IMG/VR virus record: IMGVR_UViG_3300034061_006882
Location: 1 to 37,096 of that record
Length of the DNA stretch: 37,096 bases
Direction: 5' to 3' (one strand)
From: a virus
Positions 24,122 to 36,611 of this stretch are shown piece after piece (the first letter of the stretch is position 1; each line of letters begins with the position of its first letter). The position numbers and the translations under genes were made by a program. The notes under the pieces were generated by a model, which had not been told where the DNA came from, searched no databases, and worked only from the letters and a program-made list of their open reading frames with translations.

Positions 24122-25705
24122 GTGAATCAAACTAAATTTAAGGCAGAAGCCAGACAGCAATTAGCTGCCGGTATCAATGCACTAGCTGAAGCAGTCAAGG
24201 TAACGTTGGGCCCAAGAGGTCGTAATGTTGTCATTGCTCGAAATAACAGTGTTGCAATAACAAAGGATGGAGTAACCGTTGCTCGTGAAGTTCAACTAGA
24301 GGACTACATGGAAAATGTTGGAGCTCAAATGATTAAACAGGTTGCAAATAAAGTCGCAATGGAAGCTGGAGACGGTACAACCACTGCAACCGTTCTTGCA
24401 CATGCAATCTTTACTGAAGGTAATCGATTAATCGAGACCGGGTCTCATCCAATGGATCTTAAAAAAGGAATCGAGATTGGAATGAAACTTATCGTTGATA
24501 ATTTAAAAGAACAAGCCCAAAAGGTAGAGGACTTTGCGAAAATTAGACAAGTTGCAACAATCTCTGCAAATAATGACGAAGAAATTGGATCAATTATTGC
24601 AGATGCAATGGAGGCGGTAGGATTCGATGGAATCATTACAGCTGCTGAAAGTAAAACTGGAGAAACTTTTGTTGAAATAGTTGAGGGTATGCAATTCCAA
24701 AATGGCTACTTGTCCCCATATTTCATTACTAATCCAGAAAGAAACACCGTTGAGTTTGAGAAACCTCTAATTCTAGTATATGATGGTAAGATTTCAAATC
24801 TATCAGACATGCTACAATTTCTAGAGCACTCAAACAAACAGCGCCGTCCGCTATTAATAATTAGCGATGGAGTAGACGGAGAAGCCCTAAATACTCTACT
24901 TGTTAATAAATTACAGGGCACTTTAAAAGTAGCTGCAGTCAAATCACCAGGATTTGGAGAACAGCGCCGTTTTAAACTTCAGGATATTGCCACCCTAACT
25001 GGTGGAAAATTAATTTCCGAACTAGACGGTATTACTCTTAAGGAAGCAGTTGCGATTGATTATGTTGGAGGTTGTGACAAGATTACAATCACTTCAGATT
25101 CAACGACAATAATTGGTGGATTTGGAACAACCGACGCTATTTCAGAATTAACCAATGATTTGAAGTCTCAAATTCAAGCAGGTGAGTCTGAAACAACTAA
25201 ACTTCTATTAAAGGAAAGACTTGCTAAATTTGAGGGAGGAGTTGCAATCATTAAAATTGGTGCAACCTCTGAACTTGAAGCTAGAGAAAAATCTGATCGT
25301 ATCGATGATGCATTAGGTGCAACTAGAGCAGCGGTTGCCGAAGGTATTGTTGTTGGAGGCGGTCTTGCCCTAGTTAAAGCAGTAAATTCATTTGAATACA
25401 CTTCACCTAACCGTGATATTCAACTAGGTGTAGAACTACTTAAGAAAGCATGTCACCAACCTTTCCGTTCAATTTTAGAAAATGCTGGAGTCAATCCAGA
25501 TATCGTTCTCAGCAAAATTAACGAAGGCGCTCCAGGTTACAATGCTAAAACTGAGGAATACGTTGACATGATCGACAATGGAATTATTGATCCAGTTAAA
25601 GTTACTCGAACTGCTCTAGAGAATGCAGTTTCAATTGCAGGTCTTTTAATCACAACTGACTGCTTAATGGTACAAAAACCCCAAATGAACTCTCAAGTTC
25701 AATAA
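24122..25705 (+). CDS. groEL: Phage-encoded chaperonin GroEL
   Basis: This 527-residue protein is a full-length group I chaperonin (E. coli GroEL is 548). Visible signatures are KVTLGPRGRNVVI and TKDGVTVA (equatorial nucleotide pocket), GDGTTTATVLA with D84 (phosphate binding), GYLSPYFITN (apical substrate/GroES face), KSPGFGEQRR, and RIDDALGATRAAVAEG-IVVGGG (the catalytic Asp equivalent of D398). The start is a GTG with no Shine-Dalgarno; the next residues align with the normal GroEL N-terminus. The C-terminus ends LMVQKPQMNSQVQ and lacks the Gly-Gly-Met tail of most bacterial GroEL proteins. No groES lies next to it in this window, so it would need host GroES, a phage cochaperonin elsewhere (T4 gp31-like), or none. 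It probably folds phage proteins such as the capsid protein. Confidence 0.97.
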   Translation: MNQTKFKAEARQQLAAGINALAEAVKVTLGPRGRNVVIARNNSVAITKDGVTVAREVQLEDYMENVGAQMIKQVANKVAMEAGDGTTTATVLAHAIFTEGNRLIETGSHPMDLKKGIEIGMKLIVDNLKEQAQKVEDFAKIRQVATISANNDEEIGSIIADAMEAVGFDGIITAAESKTGETFVEIVEGMQFQNGYLSPYFITNPERNTVEFEKPLILVYDGKISNLSDMLQFLEHSNKQRRPLLIISDGVDGEALNTLLVNKLQGTLKVAAVKSPGFGEQRRFKLQDIATLTGGKLISELDGITLKEAVAIDYVGGCDKITITSDSTTIIGGFGTTDAISELTNDLKSQIQAGESETTKLLLKERLAKFEGGVAIIKIGATSELEAREKSDRIDDALGATRAAVAEGIVVGGGLALVKAVNSFEYTSPNRDIQLGVELLKKACHQPFRSILENAGVNPDIVLSKINEGAPGYNAKTEEYVDMIDNGIIDPVKVTRTALENAVSIAGLLITTDCLMVQKPQMNSQVQ

Positions 25706-35044: not shown

Positions 35045-35071
35045 AAATGGGGGCCTTGTGTCCCCATTTTT
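35045..35071 (+). terminator. Intrinsic terminator after nrdA
   Basis: AAATGGGG (35045-35052) pairs perfectly with CCCCATTT (35062-35069) around a 9-base loop, then TT. It lies 20 bp after the nrdA stop. Its ATG (35047) is in frame with the next gene but is part of the stem, so it is not taken as that gene's start. Confidence 0.75.
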
Positions 35072-35075
35072 GGTT

Positions 35076-35083
35076 TATAAATA
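35076..35083 (+). promoter_or_regulatory. Candidate late promoter box (TATAAATA, exact T4 consensus)
   Basis: TATAAATA is identical to the T4 late -10 element. It sits between the nrdA terminator and the ATG at 35092, only 8 bases from that ATG, implying a nearly leaderless transcript. It would give late expression of the two genes with capsid-targeting-like leaders that follow. Confidence 0.5.
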
Positions 35084-35091
35084 ATACTATC

Positions 35092-35643
35092 ATGGAAATA
35101 CTATCATTTGACAAATTTAAGTTACTATTGGAAGCTGACGAAGCTGCTCCAGCTGCGGAACCTGCAGCGGAACCTGCTCCACCGGCTGATCCGATCGTAT
35201 CAACTCCACCTCCGCCAATGCCGGACCTAGGAGGAGCACCAATGTCTGACCCATTAGCCGGTGCAACGTTACCGCCTGATCCAAATGCGCCAACTCCAAC
35301 CGCTGGGGCATCCGTATTCAAAGTCGTATTTTTAGACTCTGAAAAACCATGGCACTCTAAGTACGCAGATGGTGGAGGAGTTAAACGATACAAAGAATAT
35401 GAAATCAGCCAAGCTGATCTTGACAAATGGATCACCGACTCTAAATTAGATGCAAATAAAGACGCTCTTTCTCAAGCAATAGGAGGTAAAAACCCTATTG
35501 AGAAAACCTTATTTGACAAATTAAAAGCAGCAGCAAATTCAAATAAACTAGGTAAGGACCGTGGTGATGTTGACGTGGATTATGATACTAAACAAATCCC
35601 ATCTACTGCCAAGCTTGATCTAATTTTTGTAACCTATAAATGA
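35092..35643 (+). CDS. Putative internal head protein with capsid-targeting-like leader
   Basis: This 183-residue protein starts at the ATG at 35092; the upstream in-frame ATG at 35047 is inside the terminator stem. The N-terminus MEILSFDKFKLLLEADEA resembles T4 internal-head-protein leaders (IPIII: MKTYQEFIAEA). In T4 the prohead protease gp21 cuts after (L/I)-x-E; here that would be after E14. Residues 16-75 are an Ala/Pro/Glu-rich flexible linker (e.g. APAAEPAAEPAPPADP). Residues 75-183 form a compact, charged domain (VFKVVFLDSEKPWHSKYADG...) of unknown function. The stop overlaps the next start by 4 bp (ATGA), so the two are coupled. Packaging into the head is inferred from the leader and the late promoter box. 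Confidence 0.7.
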   Translation: MEILSFDKFKLLLEADEAAPAAEPAAEPAPPADPIVSTPPPPMPDLGGAPMSDPLAGATLPPDPNAPTPTAGASVFKVVFLDSEKPWHSKYADGGGVKRYKEYEISQADLDKWITDSKLDANKDALSQAIGGKNPIEKTLFDKLKAAANSNKLGKDRGDVDVDYDTKQIPSTAKLDLIFVTYK

Positions 35644-36365
35644 TAAAACGTTTTAAAAACTTCATATACGAATCAAAGTTTGATTCTCTTGCTCATGCAA
35701 TTGCCCGCGATCTTTTTGCAATCGTGAAAACCACAGCTGGCACCAAGCTAGGTAAAGCAGTTCATCGGGAACTAACTTATTCTGATCCACTCGAGTTTAG
35801 TCTAAATTTTATTGTGAAAAGAGTGGTCCAATTTAATCCAAAAAGATCAGTTCATTTCAAAGCTCTTCCTTGGGAAGTTTTAAATTTTGAAGATAATGGA
35901 TTTGCACTAGATGCGAATGCATACATCCCAAAAGCTTCAGACCAAGAGGATCCTGAACTAGAATTAGTTCTCTATATTAGCCCGGATGCTGAGCCTCTAA
36001 GCTATGAGACGCTCGGTCATAAATTAGTTGAATACGTTAGGCACGAAATTGAACATCTGCTGCAGACAGGAATCAATCGTCGAACCGGCCATGCAATCAA
36101 AACCCCAAATAAGGTCAGGTCAAACGCAGAAACTTCATACAAGTACTTTTTATTAGCCGATGAAATTCCTGCAATGGTTGCTGGAATGCATGCATCTGCA
36201 GTTAGAAAGAGAATTCCAATTGATCAAGAATTTGAAATTTACCTAAAGCCTTTTCTTAAGTCAGGTTTAATAACTGACCAAGAATTCAACAATGTCATTA
36301 AAACTTGGATAAAATTTGCGATCAAAGTTTACCCAACCGCCAAATTTTCCAACAAAGTTTACTAA
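35640..36365 (+). CDS. Putative packaged zinc metallopeptidase (HExxH)
   Basis: This 241-residue protein begins MIKRFKNFIYESKFDSLA. The start again fits a T4-type capsid-targeting leader, with an I-x-E cleavage site after E11. HEIEH at 135-139 (VRHEIEHLLQTG) is the zincin signature HExxH. DEIPAMVAGM (174-183) supplies E175 as a likely third zinc ligand, the spacing seen in gluzincin-type enzymes (E about 20-65 residues downstream). No signal peptide or membrane segment is visible, so it is not obviously secreted. Coupled to the preceding gene by an ATGA overlap, it probably shares its fate. The combination suggests a protease carried in the capsid and delivered into the host, or a head-maturation enzyme. 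The active-site reading is good; the biological role is inferred. Confidence 0.72.
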   Translation: MIKRFKNFIYESKFDSLAHAIARDLFAIVKTTAGTKLGKAVHRELTYSDPLEFSLNFIVKRVVQFNPKRSVHFKALPWEVLNFEDNGFALDANAYIPKASDQEDPELELVLYISPDAEPLSYETLGHKLVEYVRHEIEHLLQTGINRRTGHAIKTPNKVRSNAETSYKYFLLADEIPAMVAGMHASAVRKRIPIDQEFEIYLKPFLKSGLITDQEFNNVIKTWIKFAIKVYPTAKFSNKVY

Positions 36366-36419: not shown

Positions 36420-36611
36420 ATGACACCACAATGGTTAACTGAATTAAAGGAAGCAGTTTCTCAACTTGAAAACGAAACTGTTAAGTTCTACGAAAAGGGT
36501 AATAAATCTGCTGGAACTAGAACTCGTAAACTTTTACAAGACATCAAAGCCGTTTGTCAAGCAGGCAGAACTCACGTTCAAGAAGCAAAGACTAACGAGC
36601 CGAAAGCTTAA
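36420..36611 (+). CDS. Histone H1-like (Hc1-type) DNA-binding protein
   Basis: This 63-residue protein begins MTPQWLTELKEAVSQLENET. Its core KFYEKGNKSAGTRTRKLLQD-IKAV closely follows the short 'histone H1' proteins of Bacteroidota (KFYEKGNKAAGTRVRKxLQELK pattern, Hc1 family). It is helical, with a basic patch (K29, R34, R36, K37) flanked by acidic ends. It probably binds DNA as a nucleoid-associated protein, compacting phage DNA or altering host chromatin. A TATATAAG sequence about 25 bases upstream could be its -10. A strong terminator follows directly. It may have been captured from a host. The family call is from memory of the motif, not a search. Confidence 0.78.
   Translation: MTPQWLTELKEAVSQLENETVKFYEKGNKSAGTRTRKLLQDIKAVCQAGRTHVQEAKTNEPKA

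Follow-up and report, generated by a model that had tools for sequence, protein, structure and literature searches.

The window, which is the entire virus record of 37,096 bases, carries two coupled genes, here termed A and B, whose products begin with leaders resembling the capsid-targeting sequence of phage T4. The leaders, their conservation, the constant pairing of the two genes, the presence of a prohead protease in relatives, and the zincin residue set of B can be read from the sequences, and we infer packaging, cleavage, injection, catalysis, and the role of A. In the scheme that we consider probable as a whole, A and B would be made late and belong to the internal head proteins of a T4-like phage. 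Their leaders would dock into the prohead core, where a gp21-like prohead protease would cut after E14 of A and after E11 of B. The mature proteins would stay packed with the DNA and most probably enter the next host cell along with it. In the new host, mature B would act as a zinc metallopeptidase, and A, which is presumably made in step with B, would serve as its partner in the form of an inhibitor, a carrier, or an adaptor. The predicted head packaging and leader removal are well supported because the leaders are conserved, the pair is constant, relatives encode a gp21-like protease, and B appears to have a zincin core. The features discussed below are collected in Table 1.

Table 1. Positions of the features of the A-B locus and of associated features in related contigs.
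Feature	Sequence	Position	Strand	Remarks
Terminator-like hairpin 3′ of upstream ribonucleotide reductase gene	window	35045..35069	+	consensus scan
TATAAATA, T4-late-type promoter box	window	35076..35083	+	8 nt 5′ of gene A ATG
Gene A, tagged partner protein	window	35092..35643	+	183 aa, ATG at 35092
Predicted capsid-targeting leader of A	window	35092..35133	+	residues 1-14, predicted cut after E14; E14 among four invariant columns (18 A sequences)
Pro/Ala-rich linker of A	window	35134..35307	+	~residues 15-72, low pLDDT
Globular alpha/beta domain of A	window	35308..35640	+	~residues 73-183, ~110 residues, pLDDT near 85
Gene B, tagged zincin-like protein	window	35640..36365	+	241 aa, ATG at 35640
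Predicted capsid-targeting leader of B	window	35640..35672	+	residues 1-11, predicted cut after E11; strict motif in 18/19 aligned B sequences
HEIEH motif of B	window	36042..36056	+	residues 135-139; H135, E136, H139 invariant in 19/19
Glu175 codon of B, predicted third zinc ligand	window	36162..36164	+	first residue of next helix in the model, in DEIPA; invariant in 19 sequences
Protease with C-terminal repeat domain	G001	66909-68900	minus	
Protease with C-terminal repeat domain	G002	68437-70428	minus	
Protease with C-terminal repeat domain	G008	52877-54856	plus	
Protease with C-terminal repeat domain	G010	38954-40939	minus	
Second tagged HExxH family	G007	63437-64402	minus	321 aa, HELMH / HELTH; not clustering with B
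Second tagged HExxH family	G008	133644-134609	minus	321 aa, HELMH / HELTH; not clustering with B

Leaders of A and B

The A protein begins with MEILSFDKFKLLLE, followed by A at the predicted cut site, and B begins with MIKRFKNFIYE, followed by S. According to the T4 record, IPII and IPIII start with MKTYQEFIAE, followed by A, and IPI starts with MKTFKEF. For T4 IPIII, residues 4 and 7 are described as the main determinants of targeting and residues 8 and 10 as those of processing, and the gp21 cleavage site is given as the position after L/I-x-E (PMC9026906). In B, residues F5, F8, I9, and E11 reproduce the T4 spacing and match at every position mapped in T4. The leader of A has the same elements, with two extra residues before LxE in the clade that includes the window. 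Eight aligned A proteins (L055 onward) have the exact T4 spacing, one of them with Leu as the second aromatic residue.

The leader motif is retained in 18 aligned B proteins that are 32-100% identical to that of the window, the exception among the 19 being the B protein of L020 at 27% identity. In this distant pair (L020, 262-1499), A carries a leader and B carries none, as if A could carry B, which is a single case.

Conservation of the pair

A wider scan of IMG/VR with three search patterns returned 457 related stretches, from which the best 80 loci were kept. The 81 loci examined consist of 77 of these 80 and four earlier loci; L176, L180, and L181 were excluded because the N-terminus is missing. 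Start codons were selected at a distance of up to 15 codons from the aligned start, with preference for a start that bears the motif. The loci encode 57 distinct B proteins, which are not independent of one another and form 38, 24, and 4 clusters at 90%, 70%, and 50% identity.

The proposal in the earlier note that two coupled, overlapping genes carry leaders of the T4 capsid-targeting type is borne out by this collection. The leader is present on 56 of the 57 distinct B proteins, and none of the three search patterns touched it. An ORF lies directly upstream of B in 56 cases, all of which match the A profile (worst E=1.7e-23, with some of the proteins being part of the profile itself), and the 57th B gene is located at a contig start. 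A leader is found on 53 of the 56 A proteins, in a strict but somewhat wider form in 36 and in a loose form in 17. The three A proteins without it include two that are truncated at contig ends and one with Arg as the first aromatic residue. The two genes overlap by 4 nt in 26 pairs, as they do in the window, and by 1 nt in another 26, and they are separated by 1 nt in three pairs and by 26 nt in one. A gp32 motif is located downstream in 50 of the 55 pairs with enough sequence. Because A always directly precedes B, the two proteins may form a complex.

A tblastn search of 50,697 phage records with three B and two A proteins recovered no A-B pair, and yielded a weak match in a Staphylococcus phage for an A relative (E=0.02). 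No B protein was found in three huge phages with a profile search that lacked a positive control.

A prohead protease in relatives

The earlier note had called for a search for a gp21-like protease. Genes for such an enzyme (Peptidase_S77) are present in G001, G002, G004, G008, and G010, and also in Flavobacterium phage immuto. These six are exactly the ones among the 13 records searched that contain a complete gp23 gene, and thus the protease is found in all five A-B-related contigs with a complete gp23. G011 has a gp23 fragment at the contig end only, and the other six records are without both genes; all are fragments, so absence from them says little. The four proteases that were read retain GELDHP or GDLDHP and VSSR or ISSR, motifs that we take to be those of the catalytic His and Ser. 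The window, as a 37-kb fragment, includes no head genes, and a protease in this phage is deduced from its relatives. Given that G001 and G002 span essentially the whole window at ~86% identity, the step from these contigs to the window is a short one.

In G001, G002, G008, and G010 the protease is ~660 aa long, and its C-terminal part consists of ~eleven phased 14-residue repeats. Read from G001, G008, and G010, the repeats mostly take the form YxxY[LIV][AG]E, with H possible in place of the second Y. With H allowed, the four proteins hold 8, 8, 9, and 10 motif copies, respectively, one of the 8 being outside the repeats, compared to 0.2 to 0.3 in shuffled sequences. By its residues, this repeat motif is that of the cargo tag. 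Repeats of this kind are absent from T4 gp21, from T4 gp22, and from the immuto proteins at that place.

The protease fusion matches 1574 GenBank phage records, and among the matches listed (the best 40) at least four cover at least 80% of it, four such records being uncultured huge phages. The protein of LR756501.1 (735 kb, uncultured) has 13 phased repeat copies, that of LR756500 has three strict and many worn copies, and that of Lak-A1 has none.

Fourteen residues correspond to two heptads, so that tags may associate with repeats as a helical bundle. The simplest mechanism would be that the tag copies the repeat, joins the scaffold, and is cut along with it. A broader reading, which we put forward as possible but tentative, is a self-clearing loading system in which the protease bears a scaffold of ~eleven repeats and each cargo tag is a copy of one repeat. 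The protease would cut repeats and tags after the same Glu, thereby dissolving the scaffold and freeing dozens of head proteins for injection. Such a system would operate in many T4-like phages of Bacteroidota, with A-B as conserved cargo, and in some of the largest phages.

Other tagged proteins

A search for further proteins with the same leader, also suggested in the earlier note, was productive. We defined a strict tag as [FY]xx[FY][ILVF]xE within the first 22 residues, a pattern that occurs by chance in 0.4 to 1.4 ORFs per genome when N-termini are shuffled. Strictly tagged ORFs number 12 of 224 in G001, 7 of 138 in G002, 11 of 167 in G007, 11 of 249 in G008, and 6 of 171 in G010, counts in which about one false match per genome is expected. 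Shuffle means for these five genomes range from 0.6 to 1.2, and in each genome the observed count lies above that of every one of the 500 shuffles. By eye, ORF 5278 of G010 and ORFs 92260 and 97164 of G008 look like false matches. In T4, five of 276 ORFs are tagged, a number reached by nine of 500 shuffles, and immuto, crAss001, and phi14:2 have one tagged ORF each, as expected by chance. Looser patterns were dropped for counting, as they gave 35 matches versus 15 in shuffles in G001.

When the 47 tagged proteins are clustered, B is the only family represented in all five genomes, and the others occur in one or two. The A protein is found in all five by profile, though it is often missed by the strict pattern. 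Pfam scans of 20 G001 proteins, three of them untagged, gave matches over the cut-off to AAA, L,D-transpeptidase, and DUF5824 among the 17 hand-listed tagged proteins. One NUDIX domain was found among 10 tagged proteins from other genomes, and one DeoC-type aldolase among 10 of the 34 tagged proteins of LR756501. Elsewhere, a case has been made for the packaging of NUDIX proteins in myoviruses (PMC9503650).

The HExxH motif is present in seven of the 47 tagged proteins versus nine of the 902 other ORFs of the five genomes (p=3.8e-6). The seven comprise five B orthologues and two members of a second family, so the excess reflects two independent families. Single tagged HExxH proteins are also encoded by LR756501 (268430-269518), where they amount to one of 34 tagged ORFs, and by LR756500 (200318-201793), where the count is one of 22.

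Within the first 381 kb, 34 of 524 ORFs are tagged in LR756501 (shuffle mean 3.85, maximum 12) and 22 of 499 in LR756500 (2.75, maximum 9). The corresponding count for Lak-A1 is four of 607 (3.12, maximum 11), or three of 429 (2.39, maximum 9) when TAG is read as Gln. The expectation that a genome with the repeats also has tagged proteins therefore held in this small test outside the first set. Phage immuto, which has gp21 without repeats and no tagged set, fits the same link. The exception is T4, which has tags and no repeats, indicating that tagging does not depend on the repeats. In LR756500, tags occur alongside just three strict repeat matches, and G007 has tags and no protease on its contig.

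B as a candidate zinc metallopeptidase

The HEIEH motif and the downstream DEIPA reported in the earlier note are both present in B of the window, with the predicted third ligand, Glu175, located in DEIPA and the predicted ligand residues invariant in all 19 sequences. R160 and Y169, located in between the two ligand helices, show the same invariance (19/19). The structural model of B, built with 19 sequences, has a pLDDT of 91.1 and a pTM of 0.89, with a mean pLDDT of 54 for the first 10 residues, which fall in the leader. It comprises helix 2-31, strands 40-47 and 53-61, helix 79-86, strands 88-95 and 106-113, helix 122-142 (with HEIEH), helices 157-163 and 167-171, helix 175-190 (starting at Glu175), and two further helices. 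In this model, the order of helix, strands, HExxH helix, and Glu helix is that of the zincin core, in which the HExxH helix precedes the Glu helix as described by Iyer et al. (PMC5512222). From the residues and the predicted fold, mature B is probably a zinc metallopeptidase.

The suggested comparison of the B model with zincins was favourable in part: the two helices are in core order, but no significant match to a solved zincin was obtained. Specifically, B has no PDB sequence match below E=0.05 and no Foldseek match in PDB at E<=0.001. The top Foldseek rows from PDB place lethal factor and an aminopeptidase amid unrelated proteins, all with E above 0.2, and VIA-align returned many gluzincins with Z <=4.8, tied with unrelated helical proteins. 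At E<=0.001, BFVD yielded uncharacterised phage proteins only, three for B and two for A. Neither A nor B of the window gave anything above the Pfam cut-off or a PHROG line, and six B and two A relatives likewise gave nothing over the Pfam cut-off. Two weak lines below this cut-off, WLM with L052 (E=0.018) and Peptidase_M91 with the immuto protein (E=0.0063), were not used as evidence. For A, BFVD, VIA, and PDB sequence comparison provided no named relative.

Flavobacterium phage immuto encodes a 907-aa protein (KNV73_gp088; L021, 3727-6450) with a C-terminal B-like domain (E=9e-19). It is annotated as NMN adenylyltransferase NadR. Upstream of this domain are nucleotidyltransferase, cytidylyltransferase, and peptidase lines, all below the cut-off, and another HExxH. 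The protein looks like a polyvalent protein.

The late-type promoter box

An exact box was said in the earlier note to precede the two genes. The box is indeed present in the window as TATAAATA, and of the 57 distinct pairs 36 have a NATAAATA box no more than 45 nt from A, but 19 pairs have none (in the remaining two, the contig edge intervenes) and TATAAATA is not enriched upstream of starts in G001. There, 7 of 20 occurrences lie 5′ of starts, against a mean of 5.0 and a maximum of 12 for permuted motifs. In T4, 21 of 32 occurrences of TATAAATA are placed before starts (permuted mean 4.1, maximum 11). Since it does not rise above permuted motifs in G001, TATAAATA was rejected as sole proof of lateness. 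The GATAAATA form is found before starts in 16 of 24 cases in G008 (permuted mean 1.3, maximum 4) and in 9 of 19 in G001 (1.9, maximum 6). AATAAATA precedes G001 starts in 22 of 32 cases, within the permuted range (mean 9.8, maximum 33).

The distance from the box to the ATG of A is 8 nt in 11 of the 36 pairs, including the window clade, with the remaining 25 having spacings of 17 to 34 nt. A spacing of 8 nt would leave almost no 5′ leader and yield a near-leaderless message. Of the 224 ORFs of G001, 35 have NATAAATA at a distance of up to 45 nt, including genes taken by eye for tail sheath and tail tube. This box precedes 8 of 19 hand-listed tagged ORFs versus 27 of the 205 others (p=0.0035), and 5 of the 12 strictly tagged ones (p=0.025). 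TATAAATA precedes the TTG start of the G001 protease gene, and the G001 gp23 gene has no box in the 60 nt shown.

Alternative explanations

The conservation and synteny of A-B also fit a role in head assembly. The two proteins could be head core or maturation factors that enter the prohead by way of their leaders and act there, for example in the trimming or removal of core proteins, and play no part once injection has taken place. A conserved and syntenic pair (gp32 motif in 50 of 55) would be expected of such factors, given that the other tagged clusters are confined to one or two of five genomes, and mutants of T4 IPIII with slowed head assembly are on record (PMC9026906). Nevertheless, head maturation in T4 is already accomplished by gp21-like proteases, and the T4 internal proteins whose role is described, IPI and Alt, exert it in the new host (PMC3012670, PMC9026906). 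Cargo is also the better fit for the tagged proteins with NUDIX, AAA, and L,D-transpeptidase-type domains, and we consider an assembly role unlikely. Less likely still is that B is packaged as something other than a peptidase, with its HExxH and downstream Glu serving another metal-dependent reaction or persisting in a degenerate structural domain. This view draws on the lack of a significant match to any solved peptidase and on an HExxH-type oxygenase domain among the weak VIA rows (8s5f, Z 4.2), but it must contend with the invariance of His135, Glu136, His139, Glu175, R160, and Y169 in 19 of 19 sequences. It must also accommodate the zincin core order of the model and the presence of HExxH in all 57 distinct B proteins, a count that is partly due to construction because one of the three search patterns spanned this motif.

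The N-terminal motif might instead be a common amphipathic start in these phages that does not address proteins to the head, since it is short and occurs on many kinds of hypothetical proteins, including small ORFs. We regard this as very improbable, as shuffled sequences, immuto, crAss001, and phi14:2 are at background, the motif terminates in a gp21-type site with a Glu that does not vary in A and is retained by 18 of 19 B proteins, and the same motif recurs in the protease-fused repeats. The preferred scheme, that A and B are packaged cargo proteins with B as a peptidase, has its own points counted against it, namely the leaderless B of L020, the missing match to a solved structure, and the 19 of 57 pairs that lack an exact NATAAATA.

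Relation to known systems

The internal proteins IPI-IPIII and Alt of T4 carry such leaders or propeptides, and several of them are injected (PMC3012670, PMC9026906). The leaders of A and B share the aromatic spacing and the L/I-x-E site with the MKTYQEFIAE leader type of these proteins, and the gp21 and gp23 system of T4 has its counterpart in the gp21-like protease and gp23 of the A-B relatives. Unlike the T4 internal proteins, A and B form a conserved coupled pair with a zincin-like member, and mature A of the window is acidic (predicted pI 4.7). The T4 proteins are described as not highly conserved (PMC9026906), whereas the A-B pair is conserved and syntenic. In addition, T4 gp21 lacks the repeat domain to which the protease of four A-B relatives is fused. 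In the giant phages SPN3US, phiKZ, and 201phi2-1, packaged head proteins are also processed by a gp21-related protease, but the cleavage motif reported for SPN3US is A-x-E (PMC5694885), unlike the L/I-x-E of the A-B leaders.

Zincin metallopeptidases are described as the commonest domain of the polyvalent proteins of phages and plasmids, and those of phages are predicted to be packaged (PMC5512222). Polyvalent proteins such as P1 DdrB and the N4 virion RNA polymerase share with B the HExxH helix, the Glu helix, and predicted delivery to the host (PMC5512222). They combine at least two effector domains per polypeptide, whereas A and B are encoded separately and have a single globular domain apiece, and only the immuto relative looks multidomain. 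Compared to polyvalent zincins, B is a stand-alone, single-domain protein that has a T4-type leader of its own and is paired with a dedicated partner. The earlier statement that no well-described system has this form can be narrowed to the coupled pair, as its elements have precedents in the T4 internal proteins, Alt, and the polyvalent zincins. The open-licence papers searched provided no report of stand-alone, coupled, CTS-tagged metallopeptidase genes. Nor did these papers provide a report of prohead proteases fused to repeats that match cargo tags, or of megaphages with large sets of tagged proteins. Use of the CTS by T4-like phages to load varied proteins has already been proposed (PMC9026906).

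We read the tagging as a variant of T4 internal-protein packaging with A-B as its conserved core, and the tags in relatives point to a widespread way of loading the virus with cargo. Because B is the only tagged family in all five surveyed genomes, B would more likely act on a conserved target, or at a step shared by all hosts, than on any single defence system. If the scheme is correct, one tag family predicts which unnamed proteins of Bacteroidota phages and of some megaphages accompany the DNA into the cell, which is when phage and host defences first make contact. Part of the dark phage proteome would become a testable list, and a conserved, probably injected metallopeptidase would be named whose substrate can be sought. 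It would also suggest how one simple tag loads many proteins into very large heads.

Additional features of the window

The order of features in the window is the ribonucleotide reductase gene, the hairpin, the TATAAATA box, A, B, a small Hc1-like gene, and the start of the gene for a gp32-like ssDNA-binding protein. Between B and gp32, positions 36420-36611 encode a 63-aa protein with a good Pfam match to Hc1 (histone H1-like), and the motif of this protein is found downstream of B in 24 of the 57 pairs. In a pattern scan of genome contigs, one of 75 stretches is a relative, a B locus that sits in a Bacteroidetes MAG. Because of this locus and the immuto relative, the host of the A-B phage is probably one of the Bacteroidota. 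Elsewhere in the window, positions 24122-25705 encode a phage-borne GroEL-type chaperonin (Pfam E=1e-66; PHROG groEL E=9.5e-159).
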